Part shown: piece by piece, positions 6,118-62,990 of the stretch
Layout of the letters: each line of letters opens with the position of its first letter
Position numbering within the stretch: the stretch's first letter is position 1
From: Isoetes taiwanensis
Taxonomy: Eukaryota > Streptophyta > Lycopodiopsida > Isoetales > Isoetaceae
Length of the DNA: 64,000 nucleotides
NCBI GenBank assembly: GCA_021234155.1
Contig: JAJEKV010000003.1
Span: 27,449,166-27,513,165, forward strand
Reading direction: 5' to 3'
Program-made: the position numbers and the translations under genes
Notes under the pieces: model-generated
Database searches by the model: none
Told to the model about the DNA's origin: nothing
The model's input: only the letters and a program-made list of their open reading frames with translations

Positions 6118-6122
6118 ACAGA
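6118..6122. repeat. Target-site duplication, left copy (ACAGA)
   Basis: ACAGA lies directly before the 5' LTR and is repeated exactly at 16537-16541 after the 3' LTR. Five bases is the usual LTR-retrotransposon duplication length. Confidence 0.9.
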
Positions 6123-7701
6123 TGTGACGTTCCAGCGTAACATACGGTATGAATACGTATATTATACTGACACGTCACTAGTACATATCGACTCAGACGA
6201 CATGTACACGGCGACCGTAAAGGGTAGTACCCTAGGGTACGACCTTGTGAACCATTATATTGCACATGTTAAGGCCACATGTGAATATAATATCCTTTGC
6301 CATGTGGCAATAGCCCATTGACCAAAAAGGGCCCAGCCCTAAATTCGTGGGCATAAAGGGGCATAAACCCTAAAAGGGAAACCCTTTCGGTTTCCAGCCC
6401 CTATAGGTCGGATTGCAGCAGCTTTGGGCGCCATTTCGCCTGAAGAGTAGCAGAGGAGTCGGAATTCATAGGTTGCAGCTCAATCCAGGACCAGCAGTCT
6501 CGAGATCCAGCAGCATGGACGCCTTCAGAGGAGTAGGAGCCAGCCAAGAAGCGGGTTAGTAGTTGATCTGATAGTTAAATCCGAGTTCTCAGGCCTCATT
6601 CCATAGGATTAGTATTCATTCTTAGCTATAGGCGACCCCTACAGCCTAAGAATGATAGGAACTAACAAAGGAACCTAACCATGTAAGATTAGGTAGATTA
6701 GAATAGATGTATTCTATTATTTCAGTTCTGTTGTGATGTTGTTTTGACATTCTATGCGCCACTCTTGTGTATTGGGAAGGGGGGTAGAGACCCAGAGCCC
6801 AAGTAGTTGGATGATCCTAGTTTTAGCCCATTAATTCCCAATTAATGCGGCCTGTGCATAAGAGCCCGCCTGGCTGTGGGTGGCGGAGCTAGACCGGCTG
6901 ACAAGGGAGGGCTTGTCTAATCACGGTTGATCCCGCTGGCGCGTAACGACGGCCGGGGAACGCTGTGAGCTAGGCCTAATACCCTGGCACTGCGTGAGGG
7001 CAGGGTATGGGCTCGACACTCGTGGGGTGATGCGTCACCTTCCAGTGAGTTGAAGTCGAATACGAGCAGTGGCTCTCTAGCTCGCCTGTGATTGGCATGA
7101 ACCTCCTGGAGGGGAGTGATCTCCTCCTGCCTCATCGGACCGGGAGATGCAACCCAAAGAGTAGTAGCCCCTCGGCTATTCACCCGGCAGCAGCTACGGT
7201 GGGGCTCCAATACTTTTCACCTATCCGCAAAGTATGCAATGGAGGGGCGGATGGAGTGGACTACCCAACGACCATGTTCCTATGCCCGCCCAAATCCATT
7301 TGCCATGAATTACGCTGCGTTGCTATCCGGAGACCCCAAGCCGCCGGGTCTTTTTCCCCATGAGTCCGAGCCACGGGTAGGATTTCCCCATGTTATGTTG
7401 ATGTAACCGATGTGTTGTTGCAGCATCTTTGTGATATGGTGGACCACCCGCCGAGGTGGGTATGTTATTGTTGATTGATGTCATGTGCTCATGTTTTGTT
7501 TACGCTTCCGCAGCTAGGTCGATTCCCGAGGGAGACGGGATGAATGACACGTCCATTCTTCCCCGTCGGGTTCTTGGCCACCATCAAGGGCCCGATGTTA
7601 GGTGGACGGCCTCATGTCGGCGGAGCGCAGATCTTTGGTTTGAGGGATGATCTCCAGTTTGTATACGATCGGGGCATCGTATATGAGCTGGGGCCGTCAC
7701 A
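6123..7701 (+). repeat. 5' LTR
   Basis: Begins TGTGACGTTCC and ends GGGGCCGTCACA. It matches 14990-16536 along its whole length and the solo LTR at 1732-3255. It should contain the element's promoter and polyadenylation signals, but I could not place a TATA box with confidence. Confidence 0.9.
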
Positions 7702-7702
7702 A

Positions 7703-14980: not shown

Positions 14981-14989
14981 GAGGGAGAA
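14981..14989 (+). other. Polypurine tract
   Basis: GAGGGAGAA lies directly before the TG of the 3' LTR, at the expected place for plus-strand DNA priming. Confidence 0.85.
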
Positions 14990-16536
14990 TGTAGCGTTCG
15001 GCGTAACATCACCGGTACGAATGCATTATATTATCTTGACATGTCACTAGTACATGGGCTGGGCTGACATGTACGGCTGACGTAAAGAGGTAGTACCCAC
15101 AAGTGCGACCTTGTGAACCGATATATTGCACGTATTTAAGGCCACATGTGAGATATAATATCCTTTGCCATGTGTGATAGCCCATTGACCAAAAGGGCCC
15201 AGCCTAAGTGCGTGGGCATAAGGGGCATAAACCTAAAGGGGAAACCCTTTAGGTTTCCAGCCCCTATAGGTTGGATTGCAGCGGCTTTGAAGCCATTTAC
15301 TTTGAAGAGTAGCGGAGAATTGAATTCATAGGTTGCGGCTCAATCGGGACCCGGCCCGATCTCGAGATCAGCGGCATGGGCGGGTAGGAGCGGCGTAAGA
15401 AGCGGGTTAGTAGTTGATCTGATAGTTAAATCCGAGTTCTCGGGCCTCATTCCGCCCAAGTTAGTATTCATTCTTCTTAGCTATGGCGACCCTTTCACCG
15501 GCCTAAGAATGATAGGGGCATAACAAAGGAACCTAACCATGTAGATTAGGTAGATTAGAATAGATGTATTCTATTATTTCAGTTCTGTTGTGATGTTGTT
15601 TTGACATTCTATCGCCACTCTTGTGTATTGGGAAGGGGGTAGAGACCCGAGCCCAAGTAGTTGGATGATCCTAGTTTTAGCCCATTAATTCCCAATTAAT
15701 GCGCTTTGTGCATAAGAACCCTGGCCGTGGGTGGGAGGAGCTAGACCGGTGACAAGGGAGGGCTTGTCTAATCACGGTTGATCCATCCGTGGCGTAACGG
15801 CGGCCGGAACGCGGCAGTGAGCTAGGCCTAATACCACGCCTGCGTGAGGCGAGGGTATGGGCTCGACACTCGTGGGGTGATCGTCACCTTCCGGTGAGTT
15901 GAAGTCGAATCGAGCGGTGGCTCTCTAGCTCGCCTGTGATTGGCATGAACCTCACGGGGGGAGTGATCTCCTCCCGCCTCATCGGGGACTGGGGAGATGC
16001 AACCCGAGAGTAGTAGCCCCTCGGCTATTCACCCGGCAGCTACGGTCGGGCTCAATACTTTTCAAACCTATCCAAAAAAGTATGCCTGGGAGGGGCGGAT
16101 GGAGTGGACTACCCAACGACCATGTTCCTATGCCACCAAATCCATTTGCCATGAATTGCATGCACGTTGCTATCCGGAGACCCCAAGCCGCCGGTCTTTC
16201 CCCATGAGTCCGAGCACAGGTAGGATTTCCCCATGTTATGTTGATGTACTGATGTGTTGTTGCAGCTACTGTGATATGGTGGACCACCCTTCGAGGTGGG
16301 TATGTTATTGTTGATTGATGTCATGTGCTCATGTTTTGTTTACGCTTCCGCAGCTAGGTCGATCCCGAGGGAGACGGGATGAATGACACGTCCATTCTTC
16401 CCCGTCGGGTTCTTGGCCACCATCAAGGGCCCGATGTTAGGTGGACGGCCTCATGTCGAAAGCGGATCTTTGGTTTGAGGGATGATCTCCAGTTTGTATA
16501 CGATCGGGGCATCGTATATGAGCTGGGGCCGTCACA
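14990..16536 (+). repeat. 3' LTR
   Basis: Begins TGTAGCGTTCGGCG and ends GGGGCCGTCACA, collinear with the 5' LTR. It is 32 bp shorter, with many small indels and substitutions; a common class is CAG in the 5' copy against CGG in this one. Confidence 0.9.
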
Positions 16537-16541
16537 ACAGA
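16537..16541. repeat. Target-site duplication, right copy (ACAGA)
   Basis: Exact repeat of 6118-6122, directly after the 3' LTR. Confidence 0.9.
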
Positions 16542-23430: not shown

Positions 23431-24429
23431 TTCCAAGTAAGCAAAACGTGAGGTGGCATGTTCTGCACCTTCGGATCCTCTCTTTTACGAATCAATGGCC
23501 GAGAAAATTAAAAAAAATGGCAAAAAATGGCACGGAGATGGAGAAGGTCGCCCTCCCTCCGTCGAGCCTTATTTTTTTGCTTTCAGCTCGTCCAATTCCT
23601 TCTTTCTTTCTGTGTCAATCCGCAAGTTACATTTCTTCCTCTCCTCATACTAACAGAGCCGAAGCGCCGAGATGAAAAACGTCACTAATAATGCCTTTTC
23701 GTTTCTTCCTTGTTCCGACCTTTTCTTTAACGCGGCATTGGTTTGGAGCCGAGAGTTGTTCTCGTCTCTGGATGTTCAAGGGCTGATCCTACATCATCAT
23801 CTTTTTGCAATAGCTGTAAAAGTTCCAAAACCTCCTTACCATAGTCTAAGCATTCCGGTATGTATCTATTCTTTTACATTTTCTCTTATGCATTTGAGCT
23901 TGGTTATTTAGGCATGCTAAACGTTAGTTACCATATCCGTGCTCAACAAATGATAGCGTTCTCTGAGATCTATTACGGTGGCGAGCTACGGATCTATTAC
24001 GGCCGTTGAGACTTCTACGCAAGCTAGACCAGCCATTGTCAATAATGCGATTATTCCCATGCTTTCTCACGATTGCGGTCTTAGTAAAATATCGGGGTGG
24101 GTTCGTGCACCCTGCTGTGGATTACTCTATACCTGTAGCTTTTGGCAAGGAAATGACAAATGCTCGCTTGTTCATGTTGTTTATTCATCTGGATTTATGT
24201 TGCATCTATCCTTGCGTTGGATGTCATCTGAATAATAACACTGGGAAAGTCTGTGCAGGCATGCAACAAAGGAAATGATGTGTATGAAATGCTTAGAAAT
24301 TCAGCCTGTTGCTGCCACATGTGCAACACCTTCATGTAATGCTTATAGCATGGCTAGTTACTTCTGTAACATCTGCAAATTCCTCGACAATGACAAACAT
24401 GGCTTGTTTTGGTTCCACGAGAAACCCCG
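23431..24429. other. No gene recognised
   Basis: Several plus-strand frames of 66-90 aa are present (for example 24006-24278), but none shows a family motif. It could hold exons of a gene I cannot identify. Confidence 0.3.
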
Positions 24430-24457
24430 CTATGATTGCGGATGATGACATTATATC

Positions 24458-24600
24458 CTGCCAGACTAAGAGTGCATTCTCTTGTAACCATTTCTTGAAA
24501 TAATTCCCAAGCTTCATCTGCTCTGTTCTCTTTGTAGAAGTCACTGAGTTGCGTTCATTGTTTGCAGAAGCCCCTTAGCATCATCTAATCGTTTCTGATG
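24458..24600 (-). pseudogene. PPR remnant, copy 1 (truncated)
   Basis: The minus strand shows the same helix as the other copies (EAWELFQEMVTRE-type), but the preceding part of the repeat is missing and frames are broken. It is part of the triplicated segment. Confidence 0.55.
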
Positions 24601-25107
24601 GCAAAGATCATCTAGCAAGACAAGGTACGAGATACCCCACTATATGTTTTGTGTTCTTCTTTTGTGCTACCCTGCAGCTATTTGACAGTCTCAATAACAT
24701 ATTCCACTCCAATAAAGCTTGATCTTGGATATCATAATGGCACACGTGGTTATCTGGTATTCCTAGTGTTACCTAATGCCTAGAGTTAGCAAAAGTTATC
24801 AAGTTTGCGGTTATCTAATGCCTAAAACGTTATCTGATATAGATTCGTCAATCAAGGGACGTAGAGATAGATCCATGCATTGTATAATAACAGGCAGTAA
24901 ATAGAGAATGTTTTGTTCTATGTTAGCTTAATTAAATGGGTCTTGTAACATACCTTTGCGTGGATCCAGCTTTGATGCGACAAGAGTATGCATCATTCCC
25001 ATATGATTTGCATACTAAATTACAAGGCCAGAAGCGCATCTGTATTGGAGCAGGAGTCTAGTGCTCTTACTTGTTTGTGGTACATGGAACATCGTCAATA
25101 TTATTTC

Positions 25108-25389
25108 CTAAGCTAAGCCTAACATAAGGACTAAGCCTCTGGACAGAGAAATATTAATAAGCAGTCTTTGAGCACTCTCAGTTGTGATTCCGATGATGAC
25201 ATGAGAAACGCCACCATGATTGCCCTTGATGACATTATATACTGCCAGACTAGGAGTGCATTTTCTTGTAACCATTTCTTGAAATAATTGCCAAGCTTCA
25301 TCTGCTCTGTTCTCTTTGTAGAAGTCACTAATAAGCATGGCATATACAGTTGCACTTGGGGGACAATTAGTTGCATTCATTGTTTGCAA
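25108..25389 (-). pseudogene. PPR motif remnant, copy 2
   Basis: Reads PPSATVYAMLISDFYKENRA then DEAWQLFQEMVTRKCTPSL. This is one complete 35-residue pentatricopeptide repeat plus the start of a second (P-type). PPR proteins bind organellar RNA through arrays of such repeats; here a single repeat is followed by non-PPR sequence and a stop. A lone unit of this kind cannot be a functional PPR protein. Confidence 0.75.
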
Positions 25390-25934
25390 AAGCCCCTTAG
25401 CATCATCTAATCATTTATGATGGCAAAGACCATCTAGCAAGACAAGGTACGAGATACTCCACCATATATTTGTTGTTCTTGTTTTGTGCTACCCTGCAGC
25501 TATCTGACAGTCTCAATAACATATTCCACTCCAATAAAGCTTGATCTTGGATATCATAATGGCACACGTGGTTATCTGGTATTCCTAGTGTTACCTAATG
25601 CCTAGAGTTAGCAAAAGTTATCAGAAGTTTGCAGAAGTTATCTAATGCCTAAAAAGTTATCTGATATAGATTCGTCAATCAAGGGACGTAGAGATAGATC
25701 CCTGCATTGTATAATAATAGGCAGTAAATAGAGAATGTTTTGTTCTATGTTAGCTTAATTAAATGGGTCTTGTAACATACCTTTGCGTGGATCCAGCTTT
25801 GATGCGACAAGAGTATGCATCATTCCCATATGATTTGCATACTAAATTACAAGGCCAGAAGCGCATCTGTATTGGAGCAGGAGTCTAGTGCTCTTACTTG
25901 TTTGTGGTACATGGAACATCGTCAATATTATTTC

Positions 25935-26204
25935 CTAAGCTAAGCCTAACATAAGGACTAAGCCTCTGGACAGAGAAATATTAATAAGCGATCTTTGAGC
26001 ACTCTCGGTTGTGATTCCGACGATGACATGAGAAACGCCACCATGATTGCCCTTGATGACATTATATCTTGCCCGGACTAGGAGTGCATTTTCTTGTAAC
26101 CATTTCTTGAAATAATTGCCAAGCTTCATCTGCTCTGTTCTCTTTGTAGAAGTCACTAATAAGCATGGCATATACAGTTGCACTTGGGGGACAATTAGTT
26201 GCAT
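25935..26204 (-). pseudogene. PPR motif remnant, copy 3
   Basis: Nearly identical to copy 2, but the annotated frame is shifted (the PPR frame continues in another phase), with small differences around 26070. It is part of the same tandem triplication. Confidence 0.7.
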
Positions 26205-26440
26205 TCATTGTTTGCAAAAGCCCCTTAGCATCATCTAATCATTTATGATGGCAAAGACCATCTAGCAAGACAAGGTAACGAGATACTCCACCATATATTT
26301 GCTGTTCTTGTTTTGTGCTACCCTGCAGCTATCTGACATTCCCAATAACATATTCCAGTCCAATAAAGCTTGATCTTGGATTTTATAACGTAAGGACTAT
26401 GCTTGCCCCTTTGGACAGAGTAATATTAATAAGCACTCTC

Positions 26441-37864: not shown

Positions 37865-38104
37865 TGCCCATCTGATACAAGCATAAACTACTTTCTGCAG
37901 GGGCCAGTGCTAGAACATTTCGAATTAGAATGAAATGCCAGGGAAGTAGTATGTGACTTTTTAGAAGGAAAAATATATAAACCATCTGTAAAGTCTGTAG
38001 CATCATCAGTGATTGTTGTTTACCATATAACTTGGATATAGGGTATTAAGATTTGGCCACAGCCCTGTAGGACTTGGGATAAACTGGATGTGTAGCAAAT
38101 ATTG
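37865..38104 (+). repeat. Segmental duplicate D1 (left part), interrupted by the 6.6-kb insertion
   Basis: Matches 44929-45347 in order: CTGATACAAGCATAAAC, GAATTAGAATGAAATGCCA, AGAAGGAAAAA, CATATAACTTGGAT, TTTGGCCACAGCCCTGTA, then GATGTG and AGCAAATATTG. Its continuation, GTTGCAAAAGATACTGTGG, is found only after the insertion at 44731. Confidence 0.85.
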
Positions 38105-38257
38105 CCACGGTTCTGTTGCGATAGCAATAGAACCGACATTCCTTGGATGGGGACGCCCTTCCTCGTATCTCCTATTTATTTCGCCTCTTTTTCGTTTTAG
38201 TTTATCGGCGTTCTCTTGAGCTCCATTCATTTTTCCTTTTTGGCTCCACAAGTTTCC
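38103..38257 (+). repeat. Element head, copy 1
   Basis: TGCCACGGTTCTG... to ...CCACAAGTTTCC, 155 bp, apparently identical to 43778-43932. It includes a hairpin 6 bases in: GGTTCTGTTGC, loop GATA, GCAATAGAACC (one mismatch). Confidence 0.9.
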
Positions 38258-39249
38258 TATCACGAACAAAATCTATTCTTCTAGCGGGTAAGCTTTGAAT
38301 AGATTAGCTTTGCTTGGTTCCTCATCCGATGATGGTGTGTGCGCCTTTGTGGATCGTCCTTTCCTTCGGTACTATTGCATCTACTTCCCGTTCTTTGTTT
38401 TTAGTTTATGTTGTCATGCATCGTTTTTTCCCTTTTCTCTGATTTGGTGAATCTACGATGGATTTCCTCTTTCTCTGTTTTTTATTTCGTGCTTACAAGC
38501 ATCCTTTCTCCTTTCTCTGCTTGGTGGGTTTCATGGATCGTTTTCTATGTGGTTCCTTCTATGCCCACAGCTTCTTTTTCGTTCTCCTGTTGACAAGATC
38601 TCTAAGGTGTTTCCCCGTCCTTGGTTGGATCGGTTCTGTGGATTTGTGTTGCACTCCCTCTATCTTTCTGATTTGTATTTCGGTGGCTGTGTTTTTTTGT
38701 GTTTCTATATGCCTTTAGTTTCGGATTATCCAGGCTCAGCTTTGCCCTCTGTGCTTTGATCGAATCTTGCCAAGCATATTTAATTCTGATTTTTGGTTCT
38801 ATAACATATCGATTAGATTAGCTTATAGTTGTTTCGTGTGTTTGGATGGAATCGGCCCTATTGGGCATGGACGGGATGCTGGACGGAGGTTTTATCCTGC
38901 TTATTGGGATTTATAGCATTTTCCATTCTTCTTCTGATGATTCGGGCAGTACCAGGTCCTGGATACTAGGCGTGAGTCATTCATCTCTGGTTCCTCGTCC
39001 TTCTAAAGCTAAGGTATTTCTCAAACTATCCTTTATCTTCAGATGGTTTTTGTAAGGAAATACAGGTTTCGAGAAGCTCTGCAGCCTACGGATGTGAAGT
39101 CTTCTGGCTTCCAAGGAACCGACAGAGGCCGCCTCATGTTCAGAGTGTTCCTTGCACCTTTCTTTACTGCTTGACGGCCTTTAAGATATACATATTTGCT
39201 CAATTCTGCTAATGACCGCTGACTGTGAACATTTGTGCTTTTCTGTAGC

Positions 39250-39339
39250 ATTCCGACTAAATTTCTAGAATCACTGTTATTCCTGATTGTGGTGATTCCG
39301 ACTAAATTTCTAAAATCACTGTTATTCCTGATTGTGGTG
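39250..39339 (+). repeat. 45-bp tandem duplication inside the pyrimidine-rich element
   Basis: ATTCCGACTAAATTTCT... to ...GATTGTGGTG occurs twice head-to-tail with one difference. Other local repeats in the element include GCTTCCGCCTCTGT near 39490-39535 and CTTTGACCCCATTAA-type units at 42630-42970. Confidence 0.85.
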
Positions 39340-42300
39340 ATTTGCACCTGATCTGTATCCAGTTGGCCGATCCTGTATGTTCTTGTTCCATTTTCACAGA
39401 GTCCTCTGCTTGGCATCAACTCTGCCAAATCAAGCTTGTCCCCCGCACCTGATCATAGCCGTTGCAGTTGTGCTTACCATGCAACCGCTTCCGCTTCCGC
39501 CTCTGTAAAAACTTCCGCTTTCGCTTCCGCCTCTGTCGCTGCCTCTTGTCTTGGGGATACCAGGTGCCTCCTTTTTTGCTGCTTCTTGACTTGGGGATAC
39601 CAGGACTTCGTCTAGTTATCTCTTTTTTCTTGATTCACAAATCAATGTTAAAGGTTGTAATTTTTAAAGGGCTCCTTTTTTGCGTTATCTGGTCGTAAGA
39701 GCTAAACACGGAACATCCCACTGTGTTCTTTAATTTGTCTAGTTTCTTTCATATATATATCGATAATTGATTTTCATGGCATTTGTGTTACTAATATTTG
39801 TATGTTACATCAGATGAGTTTCGTTATGATCGACCAGACACTCTCAGTACCACTACAATTCACTATTATTGTTAAGTACCTTTGTAATTTTGTTTTTTTC
39901 ATGATTAGTCTTAATGCACCTATGAGTGTAGTTCGATTTGGACTTACACCGATGACGCTGCACCTAGTTGGGCACATGGGCCCGTCGACTCCATACATGC
40001 AAACCGACTCTTGAAACGATAGCCGCCTAGTTCCAGGTGACTCAATTAATTATTGTTCTACTGGTGGTCTTACATTCAGTATTCTCCCTTTTTTTGCTGC
40101 CGTGTTCTCTCGGGCTTGTTCCCCTCCAGTCCAAATTTAGCCTTGCAAAGGCAGTTTCTCCTCTTCGACATCTGTTAGCTTCGGGGAAGTTTCATGGGTA
40201 CGTGCCTTGAGCTTATATGTATGTGTATACACTAGGTATCCTAAAATTCATTATTGTTAGTAGGATGCTCTTTAGCCACAATTTATCTGTGTTGTGCTTT
40301 CTTGTTATGTATGTTGGCTAGAGTAAGCCGCTCCTTATGTATGTCTCCCTTAGTTCTCATTATTATCTCTGTAAAAGCTATATTCTGCACCCTCTGTTGT
40401 TTTGATGTATCCATTTGTAATGTGGGCACCCTCTAGCTCAAGGAATTGGGAATATTGTGCATTGCATGATTCCAAGCTTCTAGGTTGTTGGTTCTTGCAA
40501 TTATTTCGTTTCTTTCTGGCATGCTTTTTCATTATTCTCATATCCATGATTGCATCATTATGTCAATTTGCTCTAACCATGGCAGTCATTCATTTTCTCC
40601 ATCCCTCTTTACTTTTCGGGCTTGTCGTTTATCTACATGTTCTTGCACTTCGCCCCTTGTTGAGTTTTAAGGTGGTTACCCTTTGTAACATTGGTCATGG
40701 GTTTGGCATTCCTTATCTCCAATTTTGACAATTTTTTGTAAAGATTCTTCTGTTGGAAGTTGGTCCTGGGTTGATCTGGCATATGGTCGAAATTCTTTGG
40801 CAATTTTTATTCTTCTTTGTGTAAATTTTTCCTTTCTCGTCGCTTTTCTTCTTATTTGCCATTAGTTCTCCCTTTATTCATGCTTTTGGATGATCCTACG
40901 CATCTCGTTAATGGCCTGATTTTGCTTATTGCTTCAGGATGGCATCGTTTCACCTGTTGGTATTCATATTGCTCAACGTCTTTTTTGGTTTTTGATCTGG
41001 TTATCATGTCCCCTTATATGCTTCGTTTTTTCCCTTCGTGTTTATCTTGTTTATTTTTTGCTATCTTAGTTTTGGTTGTTAGGTTTGTTCAATTCTTGGA
41101 CATCGATTGACTTTTTTCACCTTTGTTGAGGCCCTCTTTTCTTTCGTATTTCTTGTATAAAATTGGTTTGCCCTCTTTTCTCTATCTTCGGTTCTCACTT
41201 AGTTTGTTGTCCATCCTTGTTACTCTCTTGTGTGACTCCCACACACTTTGTTCTTTTGTTGGTCCATGTGGCTTTATACGTCTTGTTTGCACCCATTGTC
41301 CATCTATTTTAGCTCCATTCGTTTCTTTCAATTCCTTTTGGACCAATTTGTTCGCTTGATCCATTTATCTTGTTAGCCTCTATTGTCTTTGCTATTTTTC
41401 ATGGTAGTTCTTTTATCCTGGTTCGTCAGGTTTGCCCCCCCCCTTTTTTTTTCTTGCTTTTTTCCTTCATCCTGTTGTGATGCACACTACTGCGCATAGT
41501 TGAGCTAGTTGACATTTGTTCACTTGGCACGCCATCTGTTTGGTATCTTTGCTTAATATGCAGTATCCTTGTGCAGTTCGTTTTTGTTCCTTTTACTATA
41601 TTTCATCTTGTTCATGGTGTTTGGTCCCCCTTTTTCATGCTGCACTCTTGCACGGGTTGATCGTGGTACCCACCCTTTACGTCTTGGTGCACTCTTGCAC
41701 GGGTTGCTCATGGTACTCACTTACAGGGCTCCTTTGATTCGTTGTATATATTTTTTGTTGCATATATTTTAGTCGATTCAAGCTTAGTACTTTGGCATCA
41801 TAATTCATTTACAAAGCCCCTCTTCGTTGCATTCACTTTGTTCTCGTGTTTGCATCTCTCTTCTCCATTCAGATGCCATTATTCTTTAGGGCTTCTTGTT
41901 TCTATGGTTGGTTACTAGATATGCTTCGTAGTTTTTTTGGTTTTTTGTGGTCTTATCTCATGGAAATTGGCTCCTATGGGCTTATACTCAGTCAACTTTG
42001 TCATTATTCATTCAATTTATTTGCGACGTTTTGTCTCACTGTCCGTGTCACTCCTTAGCTTTCTTGCTCAATTTGATTTGTCTGCCTATGTTTGGTTTAA
42101 GTTCTTCTTGTCGCTTTCTATGTTCTTTTATACGTCCTCTTTGGTATTTCCTTTGTCAGGTAGTCTCATATTCTCGTTTAGTTCCTTTGGTTCTTTCCAG
42201 TCTGATAGTTATTCTTTTCTCCATGGTTTCTGGTGTTGCATTTGTTCAGTCCCCTTTTTGCGTCCTTTTAACTCTTAGCCTTTCACACATGTGTTTGGTG

Positions 42301-43740
42301 CATGGGTTTTTAGTTCTCCTTAAAACTTTGTTGCTCTATTCCATACTTGCATTTTACAACTTCACCTTCTCTCTTGCCACAGTTCCTTATCTTTATTACT
42401 TTGCCCAGCCATCATCATTTTCTTATCATTCTTGATTGTCCTTTCTTGTTTCCTTCTTCCAATTGGCTTTTCGCCCCCCATTCCTTTGTTCCATGTTGTC
42501 CCAATCAACCATGTAGCCTATTCATTTCATTAGCTTCATTGGTTTCCAAACGAGATTTCATCCAGGTGTCTCACTGTACCAAAATGTTTTTTGCCTTAGT
42601 TTCTCATTGTTCCCTCATTCCTCTTGCCTTGACAATCCTCTTTCACCCCATTAATCCCATTGCGCTTTTTCTTTCCTCAAACTATTCATGTTACTTCCTT
42701 CAATTTCATTTTTGCTTTAGTATCTCATTGTTCCATCACTCCTTCTGCCTCGGCTCTCCTCTTTGACCCCATTAATTTCTTTGTGCCATTTCTTTCCTTG
42801 GGTGTCTAAATTAGTTCCATCCTTAGTATGTCATGGTTCCATCACTTATCTGGCTTCACCTATCCTCTTTGACCCCATTAACTCCTTTGTGTCGTGCCTC
42901 TTATGCCACTGCTTCTATTTGCCTTACTTTCTTCATTTTTTGCTTTACCCCCTTGATCCCATTGACTCCCTTGGTTCACTCGGCCCATCATGTTTGCGTG
43001 AATTTAGCCCCTCTGATCCTATTATCCATGACTTTATTTGCATCTTTGTATTACACCAGTCCTTCTGAACCATACATCCGTCTTTTTTGTCTTTACCATA
43101 TTTTATGTGCTCTGTATATTCTTTTTGTTGGCCCTTGTTGGGTCAATTTTCTTTGTTTTTTCACATATTTCATTTTCCCTATTCTATGCTATTTTCTTAT
43201 GGGTCCTTTTTTGGGGTTTCCTTTGTCAGTTGATCTTAGATTCTCGTTAGTTTTTTATTTAGTCCATTTTTTGTTCGTTCTAGTTGTACTTTTACATTAT
43301 GGAATTTCGTGTCATTTTCTCGTCTAGTTCATTTTTTGGTTCATTTTTTCATTTGTCCTTTTGCTCCATATTTTCTCAGTTGTTTCTTTGTTCTTTCTCC
43401 TTCGTCATTATCCTTTTCCATCCCATGGTTCCTTTCTCCTATTTATCTTTTTCTCCAGTTTCTTGTTTGTCCTTTCTTTTCCATCCCTTGCATCACCTTA
43501 ACACTTATGTTCCTTTTTTATCATGTCTCCATTTGTTCAACTCCCCTCTTTCTTCGCCTTAGTTCTTTTGGCCATGTTAGTGTCTATGATTACCCCAATT
43601 GCTATGTTTTTTCCTTGCTTAGCGTTTATTCCGTTGTCTTGTTCTTTTTTGCCCTTTCCTCCGTTTGGTTCACTTTTTCTCATATTTTTCCTAGTCAGTC
43701 TAGTTTGCTCCTTTCTGGTTGAGATAGGTTCCTCTTCTAT

Positions 43741-43773
43741 CGGCCACTTGATTGTGTCATAGGACCCATCCTA
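43741..43773 (+). repeat. Element tail, copy 1
   Basis: CGGCCACTTGATTGTGTC... to ...CCCATCCTA, repeated exactly at 44693-44725. Here it is followed by GGAA and then head copy 2. Confidence 0.9.
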
Positions 43774-43777
43774 GGAA

Positions 43778-43932
43778 TGCCACGGTTCTGTTGCGATAGC
43801 AATAGAACCGACATTCCTTGGATGGGGACGCCCTTCCTCGTATCTCCTATTTATTTCGCCTCTTTTTCGTTTTAGTTTATCGGCGTTCTCTTGAGCTCCA
43901 TTCATTTTTCCTTTTTGGCTCCACAAGTTTCC
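43778..43932 (+). repeat. Element head, copy 2
   Basis: Matches 38103-38257 base for base as far as I can compare. It begins the short 0.95-kb unit. Confidence 0.9.
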
Positions 43933-44055
43933 CGCCCCCCTCTCCCTTCTTTACAATCAAGGGATAGTCTGTTTTCGGATAGTCTGTTGCAGGGTTTTGG
44001 TTCATTCTATGATGGGGGACAGTGACTTTCTATTACATGTATAGTCTCATTTCTT

Positions 44056-44280
44056 CTCGGCGTGGCACTGTAGCCTCCGAGGCATACTTATTACTTCTTT
44101 CTTTCTCGGCATGGCACTGTAGTCTCCGAGGCATTCTTCTTTTTCATTCTCTCTCGGCGTGGCGCTGTAGCCTCTGAGGCAGCACCAATCGGATGTTTTT
44201 TCCTGCGATGGTCATTCCGCAGACGGTTCTCGATTGATCGGCTGTTGTCACTTCCTCGGCGTGGCCCTGGAGCCTCCGAG
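44056..44280 (+). repeat. Four small CTCGG...CCGAG hairpins
   Basis: Units of 26-28 bases, CTCGGCGTGGCACTGTAGCC then TCCGAGGC, at 44056-44083, 44105-44132, 44153-44180 and 44255-44280. Each can pair CTCGG with CCGAG; the third has TCTGAGG, which keeps a G-U pair. Confidence 0.85.
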
Positions 44281-44692
44281 TGCTATTATATTCTTTCTAT
44301 ATGTTTACAATTTGGCACTTGTCCAGGCTTAAAGCTCCTAACTTTCTAATGGGTCATTCTCATTTTCAGACTTTCCGTTGCAGGTTTTGCAGTTTTCTCA
44401 GTTGGCGGCGCCATCATGTTTGCATCAACTCACTTTTGGCGAATGTTGCTCATTAGGGCGGGATTTTTCATCCCGATGAGAAGTGGTTGCCAGTTTTTTC
44501 ACGTTTGCATATACCAAGTGGTGGAACAATCATCTTTTATCTGGCACTCTTCAATTTTTATCATGCTCTCGATAAATTGTCTAGTTTCGGAGCATGTTCA
44601 ATTTTCAAGCTTTTCATATTTTCTACCCCTAGTAGGGGAACAATATGTACTCAAAGATTTTACAAAAGCTCAATGAGAACACCACTTCACTT

Positions 44693-44725
44693 CGGCCACT
44701 TGATTGTGTCATAGGACCCATCCTA
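44693..44725 (+). repeat. Element tail, copy 2 (right end of the insertion)
   Basis: Same 33 bp as 43741-43773, followed by the resumed D1 sequence AATATTGTTGCAAAAG. Confidence 0.9.
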
Positions 44726-44928
44726 ATATTGTTGCAAAAGATACTGTGGAACATGCATGGTATTATTCGGTTATAAGAGGGTTCGATTATTTAGAAATGA
44801 TTTGGGTAAATGCTAGGATGTTTTCTGGCCAGATGCAGCAAGACAAGCAAGTAGCCATGCAGATTCGATGAGGCTTCTTGCTTGCAGATTTGGGCAAGAA
44901 CTTTTGCCCAATTGCTTTTCGCCCATCT

Positions 44929-45347
44929 GACACAAGCATAAACTTTTTGCAGGTGTCATTGAGAGTGCTAGATTATTTCAAATTAGAATGGAATGCCATG
45001 GAAGTGGTATAGAAACAACCATGCAGATCGGTTGCTGCAACAAACCTAGAGTATACAGTATTGCATGCAAATTTTGTGAAGACCCTGAATATAATACAGG
45101 TTTCTGCATAATGTTAATGCACTTACGTTATGCCTCTGAAACCCAGATATAGTTTGATTTTTATCCAGTTCAAGTAGGGGAGTAGTAGGCTACCAACTAG
45201 AAGGAAAAACATGTAAGCCATTTGTAACATCATCAATGATTGTTATCTATCATATAACTTGGATTTGGCCACAGCCCTGTAAGACTTCGGATAAATTGGA
45301 TGTGTGTTGTTTGGTAAAGTAAGCAAATATTGTTGCAAAAGATACTG
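44929..45347 (+). repeat. Segmental duplicate D2, the empty-site paralogue
   Basis: Collinear with D1 and reading straight through AGCAAATATTGTTGCAAAAG without the insertion. It is longer than D1 in its middle (about 150 bp absent from D1) and has an 18-base difference before the insertion point. Confidence 0.85.
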
Positions 45348-46194
45348 TGGAACATGTATCTTTGTTGATTTGTGTTGTTGAGGTACTTTACATTCTTGCA
45401 AAAAATTGTATGTAAACTTTTGAGAGTTCTCCGCTCAAGTTGCCCCAAACTTTATTAATAAGCAACATTTCTATCTAGAGATCATATTCAATATCTATCT
45501 GAAGATCATGTTTAATTTAAAGCATTTTGAGTTCTCATCTATCTCGAATATAGTATAAACCAATTTCTTATACCGCTATCTAAACTATTTTCTGGAACTA
45601 AAGTTATTGTCTCTGATATCTCTAAGAGTAGTGCTTTTGCTCCTCTCCCATAGCCTACCCCACTCTTGATGCACATGTTTTGTCCATTCAAGATGACAAT
45701 GGTATCATCTTCTTTGAACATATACAACAAATAAAAATATTTTCATGCAACCGAATGTAACACCAATTATGGGCAACATTATCAATAAGGCATCAAACAA
45801 AACGTATTTCTGGATTCTCAGTGCCATCCCATGGACTGCCCACCAAAGGTGATTATTCTGTCATGACAGAGACATGCTTGCTTTCATCAATTACACTCTA
45901 AGCCTACTTCTAAGACATCACATGGAATGATCATAAAAGGTGACAATCACATATAAAGCCCACCAACGATGGGCAATTTACTAGTTGTTTATGTTGTGTG
46001 GAAATTCTAATGTATTGCAAACAAATAAGCAGTTTGGACATAATCATACTAATAAGATGAATGATTATATGAAATGTCACTATGATATCCCATTATTTTA
46101 TCAGATGTTTGTTAGCTGCAAACCTTGAGTAAACGCAAGCCAGAGGAGAACCTTTCATGAGGTTGCCAAGCTTGGTAAGTACTGCACGCTGTCG
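45348..46194. other. No gene recognised
   Basis: AT-rich, with short frames only and no shared repeat noticed. Confidence 0.4.
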
Positions 46195-48639: not shown

Positions 48640-49250
48640 ATGTGTGGTGTCGTGATGGTGTGGTGTGGTGTGGTGTGGTGTGGGTTGCGTTATGTCCATG
48701 GTGTCATGTGGGTGTGTGTGCATGTTAATGTATGATATGTGTGGATTCAATTTTATTTATTCTCCCCCCTCACCCCACCACACCCCATCTATCCCACCAC
48801 CATAGACTACCACCACATCTTTGCGACCACCACATTACCACCACATGCACACACATCCCACGCCACACCCCTCCACCACCACCACCACCACATCACACCA
48901 CAATCCACAACACCACACCACACCACCACCACCACTACACCCCCCCACCACACTCCACCACCATCACACTCCACCACACACCACCACGACCACCACACCC
49001 CACCACCACACTCCACCACACCACATCATAGCACCACACACCACCACGCCCCACCACCCACCACCACACTCCACCACCACTCCACACTCCACCATTTGGT
49101 GTATGGTGTGGTGAATGGCGTGGTGTGTGGTGGGGTGTGGTGTGGTGTGGTGTGTGGTAATGTACACAGCACTAAGGTGCTCGTTCTGGTGAATATGATG
49201 AGTGTGGGGCATGGTATGGTACATGGTTTGGTGTGGTATACACATCCTAA
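48640..49250. repeat. GTG/CCA low-complexity array with strand flips
   Basis: GTGTGGTGTGG-type repeats (48640-48715) give way to CCACCACCAC-type repeats (48769-49095) and back to GTGTGGTG-type (49096-49250). The flips at about 48750 and 49095 make very long imperfect hairpins possible. Open frames here (His/Thr/Pro- or Val/Trp/Gly-rich) are artefacts. It lies in the transposase intron. Confidence 0.9.
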
Positions 49251-55700: not shown

Positions 55701-56262
55701 AAAACCACAATCACACACCACACAACACAAGGTAGTCTCTACACACCATCAAGCATACCACACACCACACAACATACGCCAGACGGTACACACCACACAA
55801 CACGCTGTGGTGGTGGTGGTGGTGTGTGTGGTGGTGGTGGGGTGGTGGTGGTGTGTGGTGGTGGTGGTGGTGTGTGTGTGGTGGTGAGGAGGTGTGGTGG
55901 TGGGGTTTGGTGGTGGTGGTGGTGGTGGTGGTGGGGTGTGTGGTGGTGGTGGGTGTGGTGTGGGACATGGTGGAGTGTGGTGATGGGGTGTGGTGGTGGG
56001 GTGTGGTGTGGTGGTGGTGGAGTGTGGGGTGTGGTGGTGGGGTGTGGTGTGGTTGTGGTGGAGTGTGGTGGTTGTGGATTGTGGTGCGGGACATGGTGGA
56101 GTCTGGTGGTGTGGTGTGGTGGTGGTGGGAGTGTGGTGGTGGTGGAGGGGTGTGTGGTGGTGGTGGTGGGCTGTGGTGGTGGTGTGTGGTGTGGGAGTGT
56201 GGCGGTGGGAGATGGTAGAGTGTAGTGGTGGGAGATCGTGGGGTGTGGTGTGGACATGGTGC
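55701..56262. repeat. GGT/ACC low-complexity array
   Basis: ACACCACACAAC-type repeats (about 55708-55802) flip to a 450-bp GGTGGTGTGG array. On the plus strand the G-rich part has many GG runs capable of G-quadruplexes. It lies in the opposite overall orientation to the array at 48769, about 7 kb away in the same transposon. Frames over 120 aa here are artefacts. Confidence 0.9.
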
Positions 56263-57374: not shown

Positions 57375-58560
57375 CTAGCTAAATGAAAGGATATTGAAGG
57401 CCCAAAACACAGGTACTGCTACGTGTCTAGGATAAATCTGATCTGTATTGCCTAATGGTGGTTGTATAAACCCAGCAAATGTGACACTCGCAATTAATGT
57501 AGCACCTACTAAGATTGCATGTGCCCCATCTACATATATCTGACGGTCCTGATGTAATCGATCCAACCAAGATTTCACACTTCTTATCTGCAGCAATTCT
57601 TTTATGATATCTTCGTTATCAATTTCCATTGCATATTCTAATGCAGTTTTGCCAAATGTGTCTTGTGAATTTGCTATAATCTCCTTCTTGAACTCTCTGT
57701 TGCTGCACAAGGTATGTATAGCTTTTTTTTTATTTAATAATACTGTCCAATGCAAAGTAGTCATCCCCATCTTCCCCTCTTTTTCATTCACTGCATCCCT
57801 ATTACAACTCTGCAAAAGTTTTACAATTTCTTCTTGGTCAATAAAAAAAGCTAGCCACGATGGGGGCATTCCATCTAGAAGGAATTCATCGATTCTTCGC
57901 CCTTCATTGATGATTTGACGCCGCTGACTCCGTGAGCTTAAAGTCTGCTGCAAACCCCTCCTGATTGTGCCCCTCTTCCATAGGCAATAGGCATATGTCC
58001 CCAACGTTAGATTTCAAGACTGCTTTTATTTTAGCTGCCCAATTTTGCACCCACTGCTCATAGGTCAAGCTTGTTACCTGAAAAATTTATAAGCTCTTTT
58101 GCAAATGGGATGTGTTGGCAAAGCAAAGCCAGAGTCAAGGGTGTCGACTTATCAGTATCTTCAGCTTTTATATCCACTTTAAATCTTCCAAGAATTTGTA
58201 TAACTTCAGTATTACCCTTCCATACAGCCCAATGCATTGGGTTTCTTCCATGTCTATCTCTCATGTTTACTAGAACTGACATCTCTGCACCCCTGTGGTC
58301 GGAAGCAAGCTTAGCAGCTATGCAATCATATTTTCGCTTGTCCCATAAGCAGCTACATAATGAAGAATTGTAACACTGTCACCATTGGTTGCCAACAGAT
58401 CTGCAGTATCATGGTTGTTTTGTGGATGCAAGGCTTTAGAAATGCATAGACCAAATCAAGTGGAAATTCTCCATCCTTATTAGTTGCACACAAGATAGAA
58501 CTAACACAATTTACTCATGATCTAGGTGCGATGCTTCTATTTGATTTGCCATAATCTTCA
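57375..58560 (-). pseudogene. Ankyrin-repeat protein with PGG domain (ACD6-like), broken
   Basis: Plant ankyrin-PGG proteins are membrane proteins, several linked to defence or salt responses. Minus-strand blocks: ATNKDGEFPLDLVYAFLKP, DLLATNGDSVTILHYVAAY, NMRDRHGRNPMHWAVWKGNT, DKSTPLTLALL (ankyrin helices), KMGMTTLHWTVLL, DTFGKTALEYAMEIDNEDI, then the PGG start VDGAHAILVGATLIASVTFA and IQPPLG. Frames change near 58440, 58300 and 58060. The first methionine region is absent. The protein ends after the first membrane helix, whereas the family has about four. The right end of the 10.8-kb transposon lies only 66 bp past this stop, so insertion may have removed the C-terminal helices. Confidence 0.8.
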
Positions 58561-61739: not shown

Positions 61740-62990
61740 TCATCCTAATTGCTTTTTGTTTGGATATAACAAATGTTGATTAGCTTTTATAAGTGCTCTC
61801 ACAATGCTTTGTTGAAATTGACATAAATATCGAGTACCTAGACCAGCCAAATATCCATACACTGAAAGGATATTTCTAGAAGGATTATCAAGGGGAAAAT
61901 GTGTATCATTATAACTTGCAATGCCTGCATTGTTCCAATCATTTAGCTGTCTTGTTTGTATTTCCATCCAACGAGAGGTTTGTGGCAGCCATGGTGACCT
62001 TTGAGAGCCATTAGAGCAATCACTAAGTGCCCGATCTCTAGACATTGGAAGGATATTTCTAGAAGGGTTCTGGAAGGCGAAATCTTGATTATAACTTACT
62101 ACACCTCGATGATTCAATTGTCTCCTATTATGTATTCCCTTCCAATGAGAGGACTGTTTTGGCAGCATTGAGGACGTTTTGGAGCTATTAGAAATGTAAT
62201 CATTAGGTGGCCGACCTCCAGTGGTATATTTCAAAGGGTGTTCAATGGAAAATTTTGGTCACTGTAGCTCAAAGTGCCAACATTGTTTGAGTTATTAAAC
62301 TCTCTCGTCCGAGGGCGTTCTCGCAGGCAAAGCGACCTTTTGGAGCCATTAATAGATGCAGTTTCTCTAGAGTTCCATGGTTGAGGCGATCTTTTCCGTT
62401 TATTTGGAGTATTCATGCACCCAAGGGCAAAATGTTCTTCTTTGAAGCATGCTTGTGCAGGTTTTTCAGCAGCCTCTTCTCTAGCATTTGGGGACTTTCC
62501 ACAGGCCATGCCAGAATGACCCAGTTCACCACAATTATAACATGATTCTTTGAATTCTCCAAGAACGTTTCGGCAACACAAGTGGCCCTTTTGCTTGCAA
62601 ACGTAACACTTGACCATCTTCAGATCATCTGGATGGTAGCCCTTTATGCACACATCTTTGGCTTTGATTTTGCGGGGGCAAGCATTTGCCTTGTGACCGG
62701 AGTTTCCACAGTAATGGCATTCTGACATCTTCGGGCAGTTCTGAGCCTTGTGCTCAAAATTTCCGCATATGTAACATAACATGGCCTTGGTTGCCGATTT
62801 GGGCATTGAGCAGCGATGTGGCCGGATTTGCCACAACCAAAGCATGGATCAAAATACCGACGAGGCATATTTTCTGCAAATTCCACAAACCGTAATGGAT
62901 TTGCCCTGAAATGTCTCGAATCTCACTCATATTTAAAGCTGTCAACCTTTTTCCGTTTTTACCTAAAGATAAAATTACAGACCTTTTCAA
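61740..62990 (-). pseudogene. CCHC zinc-knuckle protein gene, frameshifted
   Basis: Minus strand, after PRRYFDP: CFGCGKSGHIAAQC, CYICGNFEHKAQNC, CHYCGNSGHKANAC, a degenerate knuckle around DDLKMVK, CYVCKQKGHLCC, CYNCGELGHSGMAC and a degenerate ACFKEEHFALGC. This order, starting with RYFDP, matches plant zinc-knuckle (CCHC) family proteins that bind RNA or single-stranded DNA, related to the Air1/2 and CNBP type. The Ser/Asn/Arg-rich C-terminus holds about three degenerate repeats ending FPLDNPSRNIL-like. Frameshifts occur after the first knuckle (about 62790) and near 62232; the rest is open. It is either a young pseudogene or a real gene with assembly indels. The start codon is not certain. 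Confidence 0.75.

Follow-up and report, generated by a model that had tools for sequence, protein, structure and literature searches.

Tyrosine recombinase (YR) retrotransposons integrate without a classical target-site duplication. Passages in three sources (PMC3783388, PMC9210276, PMC4157794) give Ngaro elements the layout A-pol-B-A-B without a methyltransferase, and a passage in the last of them holds that split-repeat layouts arose more than once. In this work we analyzed a window, i.e., the whole stretch of 64,000 nucleotides at positions 27,449,166 to 27,513,165 of contig JAJEKV010000003.1 of Isoetes taiwanensis (Lycopodiopsida), in which an insert of 6.6 kb interrupts a sequence termed D1. 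We regard this insert, with a probability of roughly 0.93, as a non-autonomous YR retrotransposon with split direct repeats that is Ngaro-like in layout. Its architecture is that of split direct repeats, in the order A1 (155 nt), a 5.5-kb interior, B1 (34 nt), GGAA, A2 (155 nt), 0.76 kb of further sequence and B2 (34 nt). A1 and A2 agree at 155 of 155 positions and B1 and B2 at 34 of 34, from which it follows that the insertion is recent; the element is young and was probably mobilized in trans. The original prediction, made from the letters of this stretch, had described an insert of unknown class without structure; instead, its 155-nt head and its 34-nt tail each recur inside it with 100% identity. 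The features of the locus, in window positions, are as follows.

38099..38102, no strand: ATAT, left junction overlap in target letters, from comparison with the junctions of other copies.
38103..38257, plus strand: A1, left terminal split direct repeat, 155 nt, starting TGCCACGG; identical to A2 and found at the left end of other copies.
38258..43739, plus strand: interior, 5482 nt, non-coding, 67% C+T, from Pfam, composition and copy comparison.
43719..43739, plus strand: 21 nt in common with coding relatives, from the YR stop codon to B1; over this length 95% identical in L041 and L042.
43740..43773, plus strand: B1, internal copy of the right-end repeat, 34 nt.
43765..43826, no strand: 62-nt palindrome (hairpin) over B1-A2 that encloses the core, from covariation in 19 aligned junctions.
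43774..43777, plus strand: GGAA, the core within B1-A2 (CCTA-GGAA-TGCC) and regarded as that of the circle junction; B2, too, is followed by GGAA at 35 of 38 right ends.
43778..43932, plus strand: A2, internal copy of the left-end repeat, 155 nt.
43933..44691, plus strand: spacer between A2 and B2, its last ~130 nt 81% alike in L041 and L042.
44057..44280, plus strand: four stem-loop repeats TCGGCGTGGC..CTCCGAG of 25 nt each, at 44057, 44106, 44154 and 44256.
44692..44725, plus strand: B2, right terminal split direct repeat, 34 nt, ending CATCCTA; identical to B1, placed also by the ends of other copies.
44726..44729, no strand: ATAT, right junction overlap in target letters (GGAA in most copies), from comparison with the junctions of other copies.
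44911..45359, plus strand: D2, paralogue of the target, in which the empty site lies at 45326-45332, from alignment with D1.

The insert spans 38103-44725; D1 breaks off at 38102 and picks up again at 44726. At the same point D2 is uninterrupted and reads AGCAAATATTGTTGCAAAAG, and D1 freed of the insert aligns with D2 over the insertion site, with a poor alignment further left. Coordinates and alignment hence bear out what had been predicted, an interrupted D1 and an empty site kept in D2. The 7-bp duplication that had been proposed stands in part: AATATTG is present at both borders (38098-38104 and 44725-44731), but only 4 bp need be duplicated (ATAT, 38099-38102 and 44726-44729), as other copies show that the outer A and the TG belong likewise to the ends of the element itself (..CCTA and TGCC..). 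Terminal inverted repeats are lacking as stated, with no inverted pair of at least 18 nt between the insert ends. Next to this, D2 contains ~165 nt at 45011-45175 that are missing from D1 and flanked by similar AGTRGTA motifs, by eye perhaps a small insertion.

Relatives of the insert encode reverse transcriptase (RT) and YR. In the genome searched (1,658,258,908 bases, 1110 contigs), PF00589 had 58 matches among those listed, 53 of them without internal stop, and one YR protein as query gave 126 listed matches (123 of 2028 candidates scored). Among the first 12 YR loci (L029-L040), window-like A and B follow the YR gene in L029, L031, L033 and L035, with 80-85% identity for A in its longest piece and 82-94% for B, one shorter piece aside; the other eight had no A match at E 0.01. 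Twenty further YR loci were taken from the 126 listed as 301 nt at the YR end, all without a stop inside the match. Eighteen of them match the window from the interior end through A2 at E 0.003 or better, and L098 and L101 share only 11-13 nt of the B1-A2 stretch.

The locus L041, of which 7.5 kb were read, carries A1, a Gag-like frame, an RT frame, a YR region and B1-A2...B2 in that layout, with matches to RVT_1 (5.3e-16) and Phage_integrase (1.3e-9). Its A1 and A2 are 99.4% identical over 164 nt and its B1 and B2 100% over 41 nt. In L042, the YR is open over 328 codons with a Phage_integrase match, and RT is broken. Three sense frames of L041, a single copy, yielded no methyltransferase match in Pfam at E 0.1. 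YRs share the conserved residues R, K, H-x-x-R, H/W and Y, and in our alignment of 12 YR proteins, one of them partial, R167, K194, H276, R279, H299, W302 and Y311 are invariant; by sequence, the L042 YR found nothing among solved structures at E 0.1. In coding relatives, B1 begins ~20 nt downstream of the YR stop. In the window, the TGA at 43720-43722 aligns with the YR stop of L041, and the gene-less element retains sequence from there on. Split direct repeats and RT- and YR-coding relatives thus place the insert in a known order, the YR retrotransposons, and not outside the usual classes as initially proposed.

For target choice, we compared 30 left and 38 right ends; the left ends of L009, L020, L022, L023 and L028 were unused (tandem, missing or unclear), and right ends were counted although the flanks of L047 and L049 are identical and L080 runs into another A. 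AA precedes the element at 28 of the 30 left ends, and the right end reads CCTA-GGAA in 35 of the 38, followed by T in 32 and by TG in 20 of those 35. This points to a circle-type junction CCTA-GGAA-TGCC that exchanges with genomic NNAAT(G). Insertion is at AAT(G), and none of these ends showed a duplication beyond that core. Exceptions are the window (ATAT) and L011 (AGAT) on the left, and the window (ATAT), L011 (GGAT) and L055 (GAAA) on the right. A preference for the palindromic target AATATT is hence not upheld, the window copy being one of the two left exceptions. Searching the insert ends against the whole genome, as had been suggested, did find further copies with the same ends. A mobile, non-autonomous element is thereby supported, as is the empty site in D2; no AATAT duplication is present at the other junctions compared. 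In the window copy, the 4-bp overlap of the target would have been ATAT and not NNAA, and both junctions would have kept the target letters; mismatches resolved in this way would account for the apparent AATATTG duplication. L067 and L079 are bordered on the left by an (AAT)n microsatellite, as expected from an AAT core.

The family is large and is repeated across the genome. The first 298 nt of the insert have at least 53 genomic matches (40 of 1653 candidates scored), and an 18-nt B motif and a 33-nt A motif occur in 326 exact copies each and their reversed controls not at all, i.e., they repeat more than chance would allow. Among the B places listed, 60 of 100 fall into 30 pairs on the same strand with members within 2 kb of each other, counted by eye, as expected of B1 and B2. 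Twenty genomic regions were fetched for structure comparison. A1-B1-A2 stand in order in 11 of them (L011, L012, L014, L016, L017, L018, L020, L021, L022, L024 and L025), and B2 was also matched in nine of these, the exceptions being L020, with an extra B-A unit, and L024. In L009, L010, L013, L015, L019 and L023, A is present and A2 absent from the stretch, with B just before A in L009 and L023; L028 has a single A and a distant weak B. The window interior is fully covered in L011 and L012 (97% identity), to 83-96% in L009, L013, L014, L016, L017, L018, L020, L022 and L023, to 34-65% in L010, L015, L019 and L021, and to 1-11% in L024, L025 and L028; L026 and L027 contain none of it. These last two are solo A...B2 elements of ~1 kb with AA at the left and GGAA at the right junction, similar to SIRE of Trypanosoma. 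Tandem units in L009, L020 and L080 are joined at B-GGAA-A. Viral contigs (two patterns), prokaryote genome contigs (one pattern) and plasmids gave no match.

Such solo A...B2 units and extra tandem units would also suit two separate, same-ended elements in tandem (5.67 kb and 0.95 kb), e.g., Helitron-like units. We consider this very unlikely, as the long-short order recurs in 11 of the 20 regions and is shared by the coding relatives. Moreover, A1 and A2 are copied together. Our co-copying analysis used 13 elements with both A repeats, namely the window, ten relatives and the coding L041 and L042, excluding L022 for its truncated A1 and leaving gaps uncounted, e.g., the deletion in A1 of L012. 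Mismatches between A1 and A2 within elements summed to 17, against a mean of 148 and a minimum of 60 in 20,000 permutations of A2; the element's own A2 was nearest or tied in 12 of the 13 and strictly nearest in nine. A1 and A2 are thus homogenized within each copy, far closer within than between copies, as are repeats that are regenerated from one template in each round. Helitrons start with TC, end with CTRR and insert between A and T. The ends found here are TGCC...CCTA with AAT(G) junctions on the plus strand and TAGG...GGCA on the other, and neither corresponds to a Helitron.

The interior is non-coding. The original prediction had noted T/C richness over more than 5 kb and the lack of any recognized protein, and our analyses agree on both: C+T makes up 67% of the plus strand at 38258-43739, and no Pfam family was found at E 1 in six frames of this interval or in one frame per strand of 43933-44691. 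The longest open stretch of the interior, 167 codons, compares with a mean of 171 in dinucleotide shuffles and was reached by 92 of 200 of them. Alignment gaps divisible by three number 5 of 24 in L011, 1 of 21 in L012, 10 of 69 in L016 and 11 of 78 in L018. On the Pfam result, shuffle-like open stretches and gap lengths we rejected a coding interior, although a frame of 108 codons (40402-40728) is also open in L011; it is closed in the other three copies compared. Rfam found nothing in the window at gathering level and nothing in 37900-44900 at E 0.5, and ARAGORN predicted no tRNA gene in L041, in L042 or anywhere in the window. A once-coding YR element that decayed in place, and not a mobile gene-less family, might explain the 21 nt retained from the YR stop to B1. 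It is highly improbable, however, given the recent insertion indicated by the identical repeats, the same non-coding interior in other copies at sites of their own, and no similarity to RT, Gag or YR in the window below E 0.37. A non-canonical long terminal repeat (LTR) retrotransposon or large retrotransposon derivative (LARD), with TG...CT ends and a 5-bp duplication AATAT, can practically be dismissed: the TG start, A1 and A2 acting as paired repeats and the window junctions by themselves would suit it, but there is no full repeat at both ends, the 5-bp duplication is absent from the other junctions, and the relatives encode YR, with no rve-type integrase found in L041.

Several observations weigh against a YR retrotransposon. 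The junctions of the window copy are atypical, and this copy holds no coding remnant or Pfam match, its membership resting on its ends and relatives. The two coding relatives most fully read are not intact, as the YR of L041 has one internal stop and RT is broken in L042, and their A is only ~80% like that of the window. In L041, the Gag-like zinc knuckle (E 0.022) and RNase H (E 0.00075 and 0.0011) matches all fall below the curated cut-offs. Finally, seven of the 20 regions lack A2, and two more (L026, L027) are A...B2 alone.

As far as shown, the mechanism of a YR retrotransposon mobilized in trans is an ordinary one. The element would be transcribed and its RNA reverse transcribed in trans by proteins of the coding relatives. 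The internal B1-GGAA-A2 may then guide the joining of B2 to A1 during circularization, and a helper YR would recombine GGAATG of the circle with genomic AAT(G). Candidate cis signals for this are A, B, the ~130 nt before B2 and the stem-loop repeats, 52 of which are spread over 18 of the 25 sequences scanned, with coding relatives among these.

The palindrome at B1-A2 covaries. We aligned the window with 18 of the 20 further YR loci, dropping L098 and L101, where the junction is broken off, which left 16 distinct rows. Over these rows, standard pairs fill 92.3% of 431 cells, compared with 39-52% when the partner is slid by 1-3 columns. Both-sided changes occur in 10 of 27 pairs (shuffled mean 7.7, reached by 22 of 500) and in 42 cells (shuffled mean 15.8, reached by 0 of 500), and the covariation score is 0.273 (shuffled mean 0.120, reached by 0 of 500). 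Pair types are no more numerous than in shuffles (reached by 396 of 500), and 8 of the 16 rows leave pair 15-63 unpaired, so that the signal consists of few subfamily-level changes among related sequences. No row deviates from GAATG in the core, and 79 of its 80 cells are paired. Two more YR subfamilies (L092-L096; L097, L099 and L100) have different junction palindromes and keep the GAATG core. Once the element is integrated, host DNA forms the outer arm at A1, and the full palindrome thus exists only at B1-A2 and presumably in the circle. The hairpin could function at the RNA level, in double-stranded DNA or in a single strand that folds. Integron integrases use folded attC sites, and CTX phage integrates likewise. 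In analogy to both, YR might integrate single-stranded cDNA via the 62-nt palindrome, the B-A circle junction working as a folded strand with GAATG paired in the stem; we offer this as a rather unlikely option. If true, the 5.5-kb gene-less family would need little beyond its ends and a few cis signals.

Elsewhere in the window, a direct repeat pair (6122-7702 and 14989-16537, 87% over 1.6 kb) probably represents the LTRs of an older element, and 24416-25559 and 25200-26388 form a tandem duplication with a unit of ~0.8 kb and 93% identity. Degenerate CCA and GTG triplet arrays lie at 48826-49158 and 55807-56252. The minus strand has an ankyrin-repeat frame with a weak PGG match at 57375-58013 and a CCHC zinc-knuckle frame at 62231-62848.

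A 2022 review, in the passage concerned, leaves DIRS elements out for land plants as found until then only in green algae (PMC9033089), and a 2024 review names them among plant retrotransposons, with no detail in the passages cited (PMC11630846). Repeat tables, as excerpted and unchecked, list 361 DIRS elements at 0.00% for Ceratopteris (PMC6890710) and 8.26% of the genome for Cunninghamia (PMC13415678). The literature listings searched, with subscription journals mostly outside them, showed no structural description of a DIRS, Ngaro or split-repeat element from a land plant, and the term DIRS has zero occurrences in the texts of both Isoetes genome papers. Such elements may hide among unclassified repeats. 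This work adds, from a vascular plant, a family of the YR retrotransposon order that is described in its structure and junctions and includes members with and without genes. Also new are the conserved interior of 5.5 kb that lacks genes and the covarying hairpin around the recombination core. The family supplies many clean junctions for the study of integration chemistry, together with the hairpin at the circle junction, and its large gene-less element seems to be kept mobile by relatives.

Among known systems, the Ngaro-like elements of animals and fungi have the same A-pol-B-A-B order, with RT then YR on one strand and, as in L041, no methyltransferase domain. The family described here differs in its vascular plant host and in the gene-less window copy, and its Ngaro likeness is one of layout. 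PAT, Kangaroo and TOC elements of nematodes and green algae likewise have split direct repeats and are, in the passages cited, known from Volvox and Chlamydomonas (PMC4157794, PMC3266345). They differ in encoding a methyltransferase domain, and the YR of Kangaroo is inverted. TOC1 of Chlamydomonas is said to be a gene-less relative of 5.7 kb, which our literature search did not confirm. VIPER and SIRE of Trypanosoma combine, according to a passage in PMC6681497, an A1...B1-A2-B2 element with a short non-autonomous A2-B2 form, comparable to L026 and L027; SIRE, however, has ~0.4 kb, as opposed to the 6.6 kb of the window element with its private 5.5-kb interior. KnitGypsy-Dnmt3 of the charophyte Klebsormidium, as partially excerpted from PMC5890265, brings a DIRS-like repeat structure into a streptophyte, but with Gypsy-type domains and a DNA methyltransferase.

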